In this document: positions 8,336-13,421 of the stretch, piece by piece | Position numbering within the stretch: position 1 is the first letter of the stretch | Layout: every line of letters begins with the position of its first letter | From: Bradyrhizobium sp. CCBAU 53351 | GTDB lineage: Bacteria; Pseudomonadota; Alphaproteobacteria; Rhizobiales; Xanthobacteraceae | Direction: 5' to 3' | DNA length: 64,000 nucleotides | Assembly: GCF_015291745.1 (NCBI RefSeq) | Contig: NZ_CP030059.1 | Coordinates: 2,507,501 to 2,571,500 of the forward strand | Notes under the pieces: generated by a model | What the model saw: only the letters and a program-made list of their open reading frames with translations | Database searches by the model: none | Told to the model about the DNA's origin: nothing | Program-made: the position numbers and the translations under genes

Positions 8336-8566
8336 GGGCGCGGCCCTGTCGGCACTCGCGCCAGGCGATCCTGCCCCCGCGGCCAATCAGCGCGCTCAGC
8401 CCGAGGCCGCGCGTCAGTTCGAAATCCCGAGGACCTGTGCCGTCCCTGGGCCGCCCAACTCTGTTGAGGCCTCAGGGAACCGGATTCATGGCTCTTGTCC
8501 TTCCGGACCGGCCGGATAGGATTGTCCCGTTTCTTCAAAGTCATTTTACCCCGAAGGTCTTTCGCG

Positions 8567-11500
8567 ATGAGCTTAGACGCCCTGCGTCCGTTCAAGAGCC
8601 GTCCGGACGTTACCCCGCGCCATCACTTGCTCGCGCTTGCCATTTTCCTCGGGTCGACCGGCTCCGCGGCCGCGTTGACCAAGGAGGCAGCGATCGAGAA
8701 TTGCCGGATGAGCGTCGGCAAACCGATCGTGCAGGCCTGCATGCGCGCTGGCGGCGGACCCGCCGGGGGCGCCAATCTCGAAGCCTGCCGCGCCAAGGCC
8801 TCGCCTCAGGTCAAGGCTTGCGTGATGGCGGCGCTGAATGCTGCCAATGGTCGTGCCAATATCGCGGTCGAGCTTCCCAAGGAAACGGCGCCCAAGCTCG
8901 AGGCGGGTGCCGCGCTCCCGAAGGATTTCGTTGCGCCGCCGCGCAGCATTGCCGACATCACCGCGGTCCTCGACGGCGACAAGCCCGACGAGAAGATGAT
9001 CGCGGAATTGAAATCGGACGCCGACGCCGCGCCCAGCGGTAAGGAATCCCGCCAGGATCTCGCTCAGCTCTATTTCGATCGCGCCAACGCACGCGCTCAG
9101 CTCGGTCGGCTGGCCGAAGCGATCTCCGATTCCGACAAGGCCGTAGAGGTGGGGCGCGGCGCGGTCGGTCCGCAATTGCTAGGACGGATTCTTCAACTCC
9201 AGTCGCTGCAATATGCTCTCGCTGGCGATCCGAAGCGCTCGCTCGAGATCATGCAGAGGCTTCTGCGCGAATCGGCCAGCATGCCGGGCGCCAAGGGATT
9301 GCAGTTCAACACCAACCGCGCCGTCGCGTCCGTCCTCATCCAGATGGGCGATGTCGCCCAGGCCGAAGCCTATGTCCGCCGCAGCCAGATCGCGATCCAG
9401 GAGGCCCGCACCAGCGGTCATCCCAATTGGCGGTCGGCTTACGCGAAGTTCGGCCAGAGCTGGGAAGGCGAGTTGGAGCTCTCGCGCGCCCTGATCTTCG
9501 AGGCGCGCGGGCAGTTTGCCGACGCCGAGGCCGCATATCGCAAGGCCGAGCTGCGCAAGCGCGCAAGTACGAAGGCAGTCATGGAATCCGATAATCCGCC
9601 GGCGGAGACCATCCTGCTGCAGGCGATCGACGGCATGGTGCTGAATCAAGCCCGCATGAAGGCCAGGCAGGGCAGGCTCGCCGAGGCTGAGGTGGATGCG
9701 CGCCGCGCGCTGCTCTCGCGCCTGAAGGATACCGGCAAGTACAATTCCGTCACGCCGCGCTTCGTGATGGGGCTGGCGGGCATTCTGGTCGACCAGGGTC
9801 GTTACGAGGAGGCCGAGAAGCTCGGCCGTGTCGCCCTCGAGATCAACAAGAAGGTCGGCGTGCCGGAGGAGTCGCAGGCGACGGTGCAGTTGCTGTCGCA
9901 GCTTGCAGGCATCCTGACGCTGCGCCGCCAGACCGCCGAGGCGGGCGAGATGTTTGCCAGGATCGACAAGGCCGTCGCCGGCTGGGATTCGCAGCGCCGT
10001 CAGGTGTTCGAACTCAATCCGTCTCGTATCCTGTCGCTCTATGGTTCCGGACAGTTGGACGCAGGCATTGCCGCCGCCGAGCAGCTCGTGAAGAAGCAGA
10101 TCGCCCGGGTCGGCGAGAACCATTTCGATGCCGCTTCGGCGCGCGGCACGTTGGCCGTCGGATTGATGCGCGCTCGGCGCGACTCCGATGCGATCAGGGA
10201 GTTCAAGGCGGCCATTCCGGTCATGATGGCGAGCGCCAATGAGAACGCCGATGACGAGAACACCACGGTGGTGGCCGCGCGCAGCCAGCGGCTGCAAACC
10301 ATCGTCGAAAGTTACTTGATGCTGCTCGCCAGGGCCGAAGGGACCGGCAAGGACGTCGGGGAAGAGACGTTCGGCCTCGCCGACGCTGTCCGCGGCCGTT
10401 CGGTCCAGCAGGCGCTGGCGGCTTCGAGTGCGCGCGCGGCGGCAAAGGATCCCGCGCTCGCCGACCTCGTGCGCAAGGAGCAGGATTTGACCAAGCAGGT
10501 CAACGCCCAGCTCGGTACGCTCAACAACGTGCTTGCGCTCCCCGCCGCGGAACGGGACGACAAGGGCGTTGCGCAAATCCAGGCCTCGATCGCGGCACTG
10601 CGCGGACAGCGCGACAAGGCACGCCAGGAGATCAAGCAGAAATTCCCGATCTACGCCGATCTCGTCTCACCCCGGCCGCCGAGTGTCGCGGAAATCCGCG
10701 CCACGCTGGCCGACAACGAGGCCATGCTGTCGTTCTATTTCGGCCAGAACGGCAGCTTCGTCTGGGCCGTGCCGAAGTCGGGGCCTGTCGCATTCGCCGC
10801 CGTCCAAGCGAAGATCGGCGATATCGAAAGCAAGATCCGCAAGCTGCGCGAAGCGCTCGAACCGCAGGCCGCGATGATCTCGGACATCCCGCCGTTCGAC
10901 CTCAAGCTCGGCTATGAACTCTACGAGCTGTTGCTCAAGCCCGTTGAGAGCGGATGGAAGCCGGCCAGGAACCTGATCGTCGTGACCAATGGCGCGCTCG
11001 GCCTGTTGCCACTGTCATTGTTGCCGACGGCGCCGGCGGAGGTCGCCGCCGACGAGGATCCGCTGTTCATCGGTTACCGCAACGTGGCGTGGCTGGCGCG
11101 AACCCATGCCGTGTCGACGGTCCCATCCGCGGCGGCGTTGCGCACGCTGCGGCAACTGCCGCCGGGCAAGCCGGGACGCGGCGACCTCGTCGCCTTCGGC
11201 GATCCCTACTTCAACAGGGATCAGCAGGCTGAGGCGGACGGCGCCGGGGAGAAGGTTCAGGTCGCCGACGCGGGCGGCAATGTCACGCGCGGCGGCCCGC
11301 TCAAGCGGCGCAACAGTCCGAAGCTCGATGGCGTCGACAGCGCCGAGCTTGGTTTGCTGCCGCGGCTACCCGACACCGCGGACGAGCTGAAATCGATCGC
11401 GCTGGCGCTGCAGGCCGATCCCTCGAAAGTCCTGTTCCTAGGCAAGGACGCCACCGAGAATGCGGTAAAGACCATGAATCTGTCCGGCTTCAGGATCCTG

Positions 11501-11986
11501 GCCTTTGCCACCCACGGCCTCGTCCCGGGCGAGCTGAACGGGCTCACGCAGCCAGCACTCGCCTTGTCCTCGCCGGCGGTGACGGGAGAGGGCGGCGACG
11601 GCCTCCTGACCATGGAGGAGATATTGGGTCTCAAGCTCGATGCTGACTGGGTGATCCTGTCGGCCTGCAACACCGGTGCGGGCGCTGGCGCAGGGGCTGA
11701 GGCGGCGTCCGGGCTTGGGCGCGCATTCTTCTACGCTGGAACGCGTGCGCTCCTAGTGACGAACTGGTCGGTGCATTCGCAGTCGGCGCGGCAATTGGTG
11801 ACGGACTTGTTCAAACGGCAGGCCGACGATCCCAAGCTGTCGCGCAGCGAAGCGCTGCGTCAGGCGGCGATGGCTCTCGTCGATGGTCCGGGCTATCTCA
11901 ACAGCGAAGGAAAAACCGAGTTTGCCTATGCGCATCCGCTGTTCTGGGCGCCGTACACGATCATCGGCGATGGCGGCGTTCGCTGA
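8567..11986 (+). CDS. Secreted TPR-CHAT (caspase-like) protein
   Basis: A protein of about 1139 residues. I chose ATG 8567 because it places a signal peptide at the start ('HHLLALAIFLGSTGSAAA'). Residues about 40-110 are Cys-containing; 150-660 are helical repeats of TPR type ('YFDRANARAQLGRLAEAIS', 'LAGILVDQGRYEEAEKLG'). A coiled segment follows (about 640-690), then a CHAT domain from about 711 to the end. The caspase-type dyad is visible: His983 in 'FATHGL' and Cys1034 in 'ILSACNTG', 51 residues apart. CHAT domains are clan CD cysteine peptidases. With its signal peptide this one should act in the periplasm or outside. First gene of a tight operon with 12017, 12457 and 12657. Substrate and trigger unknown. 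Confidence 0.88.
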   Translation: MSLDALRPFKSRPDVTPRHHLLALAIFLGSTGSAAALTKEAAIENCRMSVGKPIVQACMRAGGGPAGGANLEACRAKASPQVKACVMAALNAANGRANIAVELPKETAPKLEAGAALPKDFVAPPRSIADITAVLDGDKPDEKMIAELKSDADAAPSGKESRQDLAQLYFDRANARAQLGRLAEAISDSDKAVEVGRGAVGPQLLGRILQLQSLQYALAGDPKRSLEIMQRLLRESASMPGAKGLQFNTNRAVASVLIQMGDVAQAEAYVRRSQIAIQEARTSGHPNWRSAYAKFGQSWEGELELSRALIFEARGQFADAEAAYRKAELRKRASTKAVMESDNPPAETILLQAIDGMVLNQARMKARQGRLAEAEVDARRALLSRLKDTGKYNSVTPRFVMGLAGILVDQGRYEEAEKLGRVALEINKKVGVPEESQATVQLLSQLAGILTLRRQTAEAGEMFARIDKAVAGWDSQRRQVFELNPSRILSLYGSGQLDAGIAAAEQLVKKQIARVGENHFDAASARGTLAVGLMRARRDSDAIREFKAAIPVMMASANENADDENTTVVAARSQRLQTIVESYLMLLARAEGTGKDVGEETFGLADAVRGRSVQQALAASSARAAAKDPALADLVRKEQDLTKQVNAQLGTLNNVLALPAAERDDKGVAQIQASIAALRGQRDKARQEIKQKFPIYADLVSPRPPSVAEIRATLADNEAMLSFYFGQNGSFVWAVPKSGPVAFAAVQAKIGDIESKIRKLREALEPQAAMISDIPPFDLKLGYELYELLLKPVESGWKPARNLIVVTNGALGLLPLSLLPTAPAEVAADEDPLFIGYRNVAWLARTHAVSTVPSAAALRTLRQLPPGKPGRGDLVAFGDPYFNRDQQAEADGAGEKVQVADAGGNVTRGGPLKRRNSPKLDGVDSAELGLLPRLPDTADELKSIALALQADPSKVLFLGKDATENAVKTMNLSGFRILAFATHGLVPGELNGLTQPALALSSPAVTGEGGDGLLTMEEILGLKLDADWVILSACNTGAGAGAGAEAASGLGRAFFYAGTRALLVTNWSVHSQSARQLVTDLFKRQADDPKLSRSEALRQAAMALVDGPGYLNSEGKTEFAYAHPLFWAPYTIIGDGGVR

Positions 11987-12016
11987 CAAAAAGATGAGGG
12001 AAGGGATGAACGGACG

Positions 12017-12460
12017 ATGACGCGGAATGTCTTGTTGGGCGTTGTGGCGGCAGCTTTGTTGCTTTCGGCACCTGCGCACGCCACGCAATTGATCACCGAG
12101 GAAGAAGCCAAGCTGCCGCCGCCGAAGGGAGCGGTCGCGGCCGACCGGCGCGGCATTCTGCGCGGTCCCAAGGTCGAATTCATCTCGCCCGGCGGTGCCG
12201 TCAGCTCGCCGATGCCGCTGGTGTTGAAGTTCGAGTCGTTCGGCGGGGCTAAGATCGACCCGGAATCGGTCAAGGTGATCTTCCTCCGCACGCCCAACGT
12301 GGACCTCACTCCGCGGGTCAAGCCGTTCGTGAAAGCGGAAGGCATCAACATGCTCGACGCGGAGCTGCCACCGGGGGAATACACCGTGCGGGTCGACGTC
12401 AAGGACAGCGATGGTCGGCCCGGCACGACCATCTTCACCTTGAAGGTTGCACCCAAGTGA
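12017..12460 (+). CDS. Secreted beta-rich (Ig-like) protein of the CHAT operon
   Basis: A 147-residue protein with a clear signal peptide ('MTRNVLLGVVAAALLLSAPA', cleavage after AHA). The mature part is beta-rich: 'PKVEFISPGGAVSSPMPLVL', 'VKVIFLRTPNVDLTPRV' and a closing 'PPGEYTVRVDVKDSDGRPG' strand pair, which reads like a single Ig-like or CopC-like domain. No metal-binding histidines are arranged as in CopC. It starts 30 bp after the CHAT gene and its stop overlaps the next gene's GTG by 4 bp, so it is likely a partner, inhibitor or substrate of the protease. Confidence 0.75.
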   Translation: MTRNVLLGVVAAALLLSAPAHATQLITEEEAKLPPPKGAVAADRRGILRGPKVEFISPGGAVSSPMPLVLKFESFGGAKIDPESVKVIFLRTPNVDLTPRVKPFVKAEGINMLDAELPPGEYTVRVDVKDSDGRPGTTIFTLKVAPK

Positions 12461-12654
12461 CGTGTCCTTACTGCCGGGCTGACAGCGCCGAGGGTGCGCT
12501 GGTCTGCGCTGCCTGCGGGCGCGACATCGCCGTGCCCGCCACGTTGATCGCCGAGAGAGACGATCTCCTGCGCAAACGGGAGGAGCTGCGCGATGAACTG
12601 AGGCGCGCCAGAGCCGAAATCGAAGCCGTCACAAGGCGAAGGAAGTCGCGCTAG
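12457..12654 (+). CDS. Small zinc-ribbon coiled-coil protein of the CHAT operon
   Basis: A 65-residue protein starting at GTG 12457 (GTGA overlap with the preceding stop). Residues 1-25 form a zinc ribbon with two CxxC knuckles ('MTCPYCRADS' and 'LVCAACGRD'). The rest is a highly charged amphipathic helix ('LRKREELRDELRRARAE'), a probable coiled coil. No signal peptide, so cytosolic. The next gene, 2 bp downstream, also begins with a zinc ribbon and coiled coil, suggesting the two pair with each other. Function unknown. Confidence 0.75.
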   Translation: MTCPYCRADSAEGALVCAACGRDIAVPATLIAERDDLLRKREELRDELRRARAEIEAVTRRRKSR

Positions 12655-12656
12655 CG

Positions 12657-13421
12657 ATGGAATGCCCGTTCTGCGCCGAAACCATCAAGGATGAAGCGAT
12701 CGCGTGCAAGCATTGCTCGCGGGACTTACGCGTCGTGCAGCCGATGCTGCGCGAGATCGACGACATTGTCGCCGATCTGGACAAGCTCAGGCGCGATCTC
12801 GACCGCATCAATGTCCGGCTGGAGCGCTACAACAATCCGCTGCGTTATTACGGCACGCACGCGGTGCTCTACGTTGCCATTCCATCCCTCCTGCTGGTGG
12901 TCGCGCATGTGCTCGTGACCATCACTTTCAACGTATCTGCGCTCCCGCTTCGGATCGCGTCGATCGCGATACCACTTCTGTTCGGCTTCGTGGCCTATCC
13001 GTTGCACCGCGTCTCTACCTTGCCCGCCTTCGTGCTGGCGTTCCTGACGGCAGGTGTCAGCATCCTGTCGATGCTGACGGTAACCGGAGTTCACGATCAT
13101 GTCCCGATCTTGCCGGAAGCCTGGATCGAATGGCGCGAGGTGTTCGAGTATGGCGCTAGCATCCTGCTTGCCTTCGTCTCCGGAAACATCTTGAGCGTGG
13201 TGATCTTCCAAGTGCTGCCGCGCGTTTTGACCCAGGGCGGCAAGCCGAATGCGTTTGCCTTCCGCGTGGCGCGCTTGATCGGCCAGCACGTCGGCGAAGA
13301 GCAACTGCGCCGCCGCGCCCGCCTAATTCAGGATCTCATGCAGACCGTCGGGCCGCTGGCCGGCGTGGCCGCGACCGGTATCGGCTCTATCTATGCCGGC
13401 TTGAAGGGCTTGTTGGGTTAG
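12657..13421 (+). CDS. Zinc-ribbon, coiled-coil membrane protein of the CHAT operon
   Basis: A 254-residue protein: zinc ribbon (1-25, 'MECPFCAETI' and 'ACKHCSRDL'), a short coiled coil (30-60, 'DIVADLDKLRRDLDRINVRL'), then four hydrophobic segments (about 68-90, 100-118, 122-142 and 163-188). A helical C-terminal tail follows and ends in a glycine-rich hydrophobic stretch ('GPLAGVAATGIGSIYAGL'). The zinc ribbon and coiled coil should face the cytosol. Last gene of the CHAT operon; the arrangement suggests a membrane component linking a cytosolic sensor to the secreted protease, which is inference. Its last 35 bp overlap the convergent LysR gene. Confidence 0.8.
   Translation: MECPFCAETIKDEAIACKHCSRDLRVVQPMLREIDDIVADLDKLRRDLDRINVRLERYNNPLRYYGTHAVLYVAIPSLLLVVAHVLVTITFNVSALPLRIASIAIPLLFGFVAYPLHRVSTLPAFVLAFLTAGVSILSMLTVTGVHDHVPILPEAWIEWREVFEYGASILLAFVSGNILSVVIFQVLPRVLTQGGKPNAFAFRVARLIGQHVGEEQLRRRARLIQDLMQTVGPLAGVAATGIGSIYAGLKGLLG

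Follow-up and report, generated by a model that had tools for sequence, protein, structure and literature searches.

A conserved TPR-CHAT protease operon of Bradyrhizobium and its relatives, with an Ig-like partner and a putative four-helix membrane protein

Closest described systems

By family and fold, the protease described here is a TPR-CHAT protease, and its closest described counterparts are Csx29 (of the Craspase complex, type III-E CRISPR) and eukaryotic separase. We analyzed a stretch of 64,000 nucleotides from Bradyrhizobium sp. CCBAU 53351 (contig NZ_CP030059.1, positions 2,507,501 to 2,571,500), hereafter the window, which carries a four-gene operon encoding a TPR-CHAT protease, an Ig-like protein, a small zinc-ribbon protein and a second zinc-ribbon protein with four predicted transmembrane helices. 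The protease differs from Csx29 and separase in its signal-peptide-like start, its N-terminal cysteine domain, and the Ig-like and membrane proteins encoded beside it. The Craspase protease is cytosolic, whereas 41 of 42 CHAT sequences of the present type begin with a signal-peptide-like segment, as judged by a test of hydropathy plus an AxA-type site rather than by SignalP. Craspase comes with a CRISPR array, whereas positions 1-22000 of the window hold no CRISPR-like family of direct repeats (at least 22 bp, within 200 bp). No Cas family of Pfam or NCBIfam matched the seven open reading frames scanned outside the operon, some of which are probably not genes.

Type IV Thoeris joins TIR and a caspase-like protease, the latter activated by a small molecule that the TIR protein makes (PMC12847820). 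The likeness lies in the presence of TIR and a caspase-fold protease at one locus, which holds for a minority version of our module (a TIR-membrane protein in 6 of 96 related loci). Here, in contrast, the protease seems to be exported and TIR, where present, forms one protein with a four-helix membrane domain; the window version lacks TIR, with no Pfam TIR match in its four proteins. System 4 of Kaur et al. 2020 (EACC1 plus caspase) also combines a membrane component, a caspase-superfamily protease and exchangeable domains (PMC7159879). However, EACC1 has one transmembrane helix and no Ig-like secreted partner in the available part of that account, as against four helices and an Ig-like protein here. 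The NCBIfam model of the EACC1 caspase matched none of the four window proteins, none of which passed any NCBIfam cut-off, and four Peptidase_C14 (C14) proteins of variant loci scored 50-58 against its cut-off of 140.

Ig-like domains accompany caspase-fold proteases in MALT1, PorU and the gingipains, and the Ig3 domain of paracaspase MALT1 has been proposed to be autoinhibitory (PMC4357240). Our module has a separate Ig-like protein instead, and the likeness shown is one of fold. For prokaryotic metacaspases, which are common in Alphaproteobacteria, N-terminal helices that are likely signal peptides, operon neighbors and possible extracellular roles have been noted, and the accessible portion of that survey describes no module of Ig-like, zinc-ribbon and four-helix proteins (PMC3501461). 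Identity with a known defence system was rejected, since PADLOC returned nothing for the CHAT, Ig-like or four-helix proteins and only a 13-bit match to LmuB (E 0.005) for the small zinc-ribbon protein. By the features tested, the module is built on a TPR-CHAT protease but belongs neither to Craspase nor to type IV Thoeris or the EACC1 systems, and in the sources covered, some of them partial, none of these three is described with an exported protease and a multi-helix membrane partner. Among the open-licence papers listed in searches aimed at the module and at analogues, we recognized no description of it.

Conservation of the four-gene neighborhood

A first-pass annotation of the window had singled out four tightly packed genes and named a conserved neighborhood as one way to check their association. 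Open reading frame calls recover all four on the forward strand at the same positions (Table 1), with 30 bp between the first two, a 4-bp overlap between the second and third, and 2 bp before the fourth, and the neighborhood sought in other genomes was found. Of 149 genomes sampled from the family, 25 were matched with the fourth protein as query; an Ig profile matched 91 of 391 family genomes, spread over 15 of 47 genera, and left 300 genomes without a match. Examination of 100 places, four of which were dropped as weak partial Ig matches (L259-L262, 21-23 bits), gave 96 loci. The profiles behind these numbers derive from the loci discovered earliest and may miss divergent parts. The order CHAT, Ig-like, small zinc-ribbon, zinc-ribbon membrane protein on one strand recurs in 67 of the 96; measured from profile starts, the median gaps are about 43, 5 and 2 bp, and one CHAT-Ig gap reaches 3.5 kb. 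The Ig query also retrieved 77 named loci, of which 75 contain all four genes; some of their genomes overlap those of the survey. Protein searches (the best 120 of 1277 and the best 120 of 1638 matches, nearly all close relatives) added no variants among the matches listed. Mirror-tree correlations of 0.86-0.95 over 141 loci include duplicates and shared phylogeny and were not used as support. A cassette and flanks of Bradyrhizobium type also occur in a record under the name Frankia sp. RB7, which is probably mislabelled or contaminated.

Within 6.5 kb of the Ig gene, 75 of the 96 loci carry only a CHAT protease, 11 only a C14 protease, one (L047) both, with the C14 gene 4.9 kb away on the opposite strand, and nine neither (L048, L054, L056, L057, L237 and L258, together with L058, L061 and L256 on short contigs). 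The four-helix partner is present in 91 loci, as a zinc-ribbon type in 85 and a TIR type in six, and was not found in L237, L245, L246, L257 and L258. The genome that contains the window (8.3 Mb; its closest named relatives among the fetched loci are Bradyrhizobium) has five CHAT matches, four of them above the cut-off. The four other CHAT loci, inspected over 17-18 kb each, hold no Ig-like, small zinc-ribbon or zinc-ribbon membrane gene, which argues that these partners belong to this particular CHAT gene. Chance adjacency of the four genes was rejected on the neighborhood counts together with these four partnerless matches.

Proteins of the module

The first protein matches the CHAT domain at 173.4 bits against a curated cut-off of 24, and TPRs were also matched by Pfam. 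A TPR solenoid lies N-terminal to the CHAT domain, giving a fold like that of Csx29 and separase. The dyad of His983 and Cys1034, proposed earlier from the window sequence, is borne out: the residues lie within the motifs FATHG and SACNTG and are invariant in a set of 92 sequences, comprising that of the window and those of fetched loci with matches above 600 bits, near-duplicates counted. Proteolytic activity is predicted for this caspase-like protein. The N-terminal cysteines C46, C58, C74 and C85 are kept in 88/88, 88/88, 87/89 and 88/89 of those sequences that are ungapped at each column, and the TPR-C14 caspases found at L043 and L248 also start with a similar domain. A sequence search of PDB with the protease returned TPR proteins, mostly kinesin light chains. 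Two loci (L139 and L155) have two tandem TPR-CHAT genes preceding the Ig gene.

The first-pass annotation had also assigned an Ig-like fold to the 147-residue protein and signal peptides to this protein and the protease. An AlphaFold2 model, mostly strands at pLDDT 86, supports the fold, and signal-peptide-like starts recur in 23 of 24 Ig sequences, in line with the CHAT result under the same test. No Pfam or NCBIfam model matched the Ig-like protein above cut-off. Its best Foldseek match was CopC (5icu, E 4.1e-4), after which some homologues are named, and the Pfam CopC model gave 14.7 bits against a cut-off of 23.3. The copper site of CopC has histidine ligands. The mature window protein has no histidine, its only one lying in the signal-peptide-like part, and the 24 homologues have no invariant or nearly invariant histidine column; a CopC-like copper protein was rejected on this ground. 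The PDB sequence search gave nothing useful for the Ig or four-helix families, and in the VIA list rows were tied and no dedicated relative of the Ig-like protein stood out.

The third and fourth proteins both begin with paired CxxC motifs, as the first-pass annotation had noted. The four cysteines C3, C6, C17 and C20 of the fourth protein are invariant in 21 of 21 aligned versions, and across 115 different zinc-ribbon-type sequences they are invariant along with H84, D147, P153 and S168. However, the Pfam zinc-ribbon matches of both proteins fall under the gathering cut-offs, and putative zinc binding is therefore deduced from the cysteines. The small protein is 31% identical to the N-terminus of the four-helix protein over 54 residues and is missing from several divergent loci; for these reasons it is probably an accessory coiled-coil partner.

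None of 21 zinc-ribbon membrane proteins passed the test for a signal-peptide-like start, and the fourth protein has no Pfam or NCBIfam match above cut-off. It has four predicted helices, and its charge pattern suggests that both ends lie inside. The loop between the third and fourth helices ranks with the best-conserved stretches of the protein (D147, P153, W159, E161, E164), and in TIR-type versions the motif PI(L/M)P....EW is kept in four of six and the Trp in all six. Such conservation is as expected if this predicted surface faces a constant Ig-like partner.

In one genome (G123), the 3' end of the zinc-ribbon membrane gene recurs in about eight further copies across some 19 kb downstream, mostly at 81-98% identity (L039 12363-12484, 12934-13054, 15857-15969, 17493-17559 and 19308-19500; L040 3390-3592, 5047-5211, 7661-7771 and 11912-11955). 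This repeated end may be an attachment site for serial integrations.

Upstream of the operon, a pair of hexamers (Table 1) falls in blocks conserved among 43 aligned upstream regions of Bradyrhizobium-type loci, only the final base of the first hexamer being variable. We infer a putative housekeeping promoter here; a scan with the E. coli consensus did not list these hexamers. Rfam at gathering scores found no structured RNA in the window.

Table 1. Features of the operon and its upstream region, in window coordinates
Feature	Position	Strand	Remark
Putative housekeeping promoter	8494..8522	+	CTTGTC (8494-8499), 17 bp, TAGGAT (8517-8522)
TPR-CHAT caspase-like protease, signal-peptide-like start, 1139 aa	8567..11986	+	
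Signal-peptide-like N-terminus, residues 1-37	8567..8677	+	hydrophobic core, then AAA
N-terminal four-cysteine domain, residues 46-85 (C46, C58, C74, C85)	8702..8821	+	
CHAT domain, residues 781-1135	10907..11971	+	Pfam PF12770
Predicted catalytic His983 codon	11513..11515	+	H in 92/92 sequences
Predicted catalytic Cys1034 codon	11666..11668	+	C in 92/92 sequences
Ig-like protein, signal-peptide-like start, 147 aa; Ig-like domain ~residues 50-147	12017..12460	+	
Small zinc-ribbon/coiled-coil protein, 65 aa, GTG start	12457..12654	+	overlaps Ig gene by 4 bp
Zinc-ribbon/coiled-coil/four-helix membrane protein, 254 aa	12657..13421	+	
Predicted periplasmic loop between helices 3 and 4, residues 144-164, candidate docking/cleavage site	13086..13148	+	topology from charge

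Exchange of the protease and of the cytosolic domain

CHAT is absent from 20 loci, and a C14 caspase lies near the Ig gene in 11 of these, on its strand in eight and on the opposite strand in three. The background of such genes, as estimated from 71 matches in 18 Ig-positive genomes (about 75 Mb), amounts to 0.012 per 13 kb overall and rises to 0.046 in the genome richest in them; even at the latter rate, the binomial chance of the observed proximity is about 2e-10, the rates being those of the 18 genomes. All eight C14 proteins checked by the hydropathy test, a set outside which those of L051 and L246 lie, have signal-peptide-like starts. Their accessory parts include TPRs (L043), Sel1 repeats (L077) and peptidoglycan-binding matches below cut-off (L050, L051). 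Two genomes (G016 and G138) have an unusual caspase load, with 15 and 13 Peptidase_C14 matches, some of them pieces of one gene.

A TIR domain takes the place of the zinc ribbon in six loci, the four-helix domain being the part common to both versions. Pfam TIR_2 (PF13676) recognizes it in L058, L060 and L061 (40.8, 42.8 and 40.7 bits, cut-off 28) and a local profile only in L251, L252 and L256; by reading of the sequences, all six have a Glu at the expected TIR position. In L058 (1790-2683), the four-helix membrane domain sits inside the TIR, between a part ending in LIGSNWL and the helix of the conserved Glu.

On a tree of 99 Ig proteins, built by a quick method from few columns and with 39 of its 95 inner branches open, 12 changes are needed for the protease labels and six for those of the cytosolic domain, 'none' being counted as a state. 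C14 rows are spread over four places on it, and the TIR loci fall into one group (94) that contains both CHAT and C14 versions. Judged from these sequence patterns, exchange of the protease class is independent of that of the cytosolic domain, and the Ig-like and four-helix parts stay.

Genomic settings and wider distribution

The 96 cassettes occur at the tig-clpP-clpX-lon locus (23), with at least one of the two genes upstream of the operon in the window (31), or elsewhere (42), so that the module keeps together across genomic settings. Cassettes at the first site are flanked by clpP and clpX, or by one of these where the sequence ends, with the flanking genes on the same strand in all 23; they belong to Afipia and relatives (L041, L042, L045, L049, L052 and others). 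At one of them (L237) the cassette has decayed to little beyond the Ig gene, and a full copy lies elsewhere in the same genome.

Outside the family the Ig profile is sparse, since it matched 10 of 385 genomes of the class (two from the family) and 12 of 398 of the phylum (ten from the genus). In the order beyond the genus, the four-helix profile gave only two weak zinc-ribbon matches in 297 genomes. The distant Ig loci mostly have a protease nearby: TPR-CHAT in L076; C14-Sel1, with a zinc-ribbon membrane protein, in L077; a single trypsin-Peptidase_C14-DUF4384 fusion in L078 (13564-16377), with similar C14-matching genes in L081 and L082; TPR-C14 and TPR-trypsin in L080; and a trypsin-like gene, named by reading, in L083, whose genome has no C14 or CHAT matches. 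None was seen in L079, at a contig end, or in L160, which has only the Ig-like and zinc-ribbon membrane genes. A locus from another class (L272) has Ig-like, zinc-ribbon membrane and C14 genes. A second, divergent context, in L080 (9247-16197) and L083 (2112-5769), sets the Ig gene with an LPP20-like lipoprotein, a DUF4384 or DUF4384-like gene and TPR-trypsin; L080 adds a TPR-caspase, and the order is similar in L083, a distant genome in which the names were given by reading.

A possible relay across the inner membrane

Gene order and its conservation, the exchange of protease and cytosolic domain, the predicted folds and the conserved dyad are results of the computation. Our favored reading, to which we assign a probability of about one half, is that the operon encodes one membrane-spanning module that relays a signal from outside to inside. 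The TPR-CHAT protease and the Ig-like protein would be exported to the periplasm, where the latter would bind the caspase-fold protease and regulate it, whether by inhibiting it, by activating it or by assisting its folding. Four helices would embed the fourth protein in the inner membrane; on the cytosolic side its zinc ribbon and coiled coil would pair with the small zinc-ribbon protein, and on the periplasmic side the conserved loop would face the CHAT/Ig pair. The variable part of the protease (TPRs, or the Sel1 repeats or weak peptidoglycan-binding-like matches of C14 versions) may sense an envelope event; the activated protease may then cleave or release the Ig/loop assembly, and the change would pass through the four-helix protein to the exchangeable cytosolic end, an adaptor in the case of the zinc ribbon and an adaptor or NAD-using enzyme in the case of TIR. 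The predicted two-sided compartments, already proposed in the first-pass annotation, fit the signal-peptide-like starts, the charge distribution and the domain swaps; export, topology, zinc binding and complex formation are deduced. That annotation also suggested that the zinc-ribbon proteins may control the protease. Direction and trigger are the most conjectural steps. We favor the outside-to-inside direction because accessory parts of the protease vary outside, while the cytosolic end varies between adaptor-like and enzyme-like forms. More tentatively, the wider set of loci may represent a transmembrane caspase relay, running from a periplasmic CHAT or C14 protease with its Ig regulator through the four-helix protein to a cytosolic zinc ribbon or TIR; we found no bacterial caspase system described as working across the membrane in this way in the open-licence literature.

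The signal could instead run from inside out, with the cytosolic zinc ribbon or TIR sensing infection or damage and the four-helix protein unleashing the protease on the envelope in a form of abortive infection. Type IV Thoeris couples TIR with a caspase-like protease (PMC12847820), the TIR membrane protein of L060 gives weak matches to Thoeris models (37.7 bits, cut-off 220; PADLOC ThsB, E 7e-6), and the distribution over family genomes is patchy. We nevertheless regard such self-killing as unlikely, given the empty PADLOC results for the CHAT, Ig-like and four-helix proteins, the few neighboring open reading frames scanned, among which no defence gene was recognized, the prevalent zinc-ribbon version, which has no known sensor domain, and the steady, non-island-like position of the 31 loci that share the upstream genes of the window. 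Quite unlikely, too, is an arrangement free of signaling, in which the four-helix protein serves as an anchor, and the periplasmic protease is useful constitutively and has the Ig-like protein as its dedicated folding partner: an anchor would need neither a conserved zinc ribbon and a second cytosolic zinc-ribbon protein nor a TIR replacement with its Glu kept. The cassettes on the same strand between clpP and clpX raise the idea that the module serves the tig-clpP-clpX-lon locus as a branch for proteolysis outside the cytoplasm, linked to ClpXP in envelope protein quality control. We consider this very improbable, as 73 of the 96 loci lie elsewhere, the site may merely be a permissive place of insertion, and the cassette of L237 decayed there. 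Furthermore, gaps of about 170-410 bp to clpP and clpX in the loci read do not indicate co-transcription.

Significance

Two protein families that lack a curated model above cut-off, the Ig-like and the four-helix proteins, mark a compact module that gives a direct handle on the roles of secreted caspases and CHAT proteins in Alphaproteobacteria. One loop, between the third and fourth helices, and one dyad, His983/Cys1034, can be named as targets for mutation. The module seems to connect proteolysis on the outer side of the inner membrane with the cell interior in a way that has not been described.

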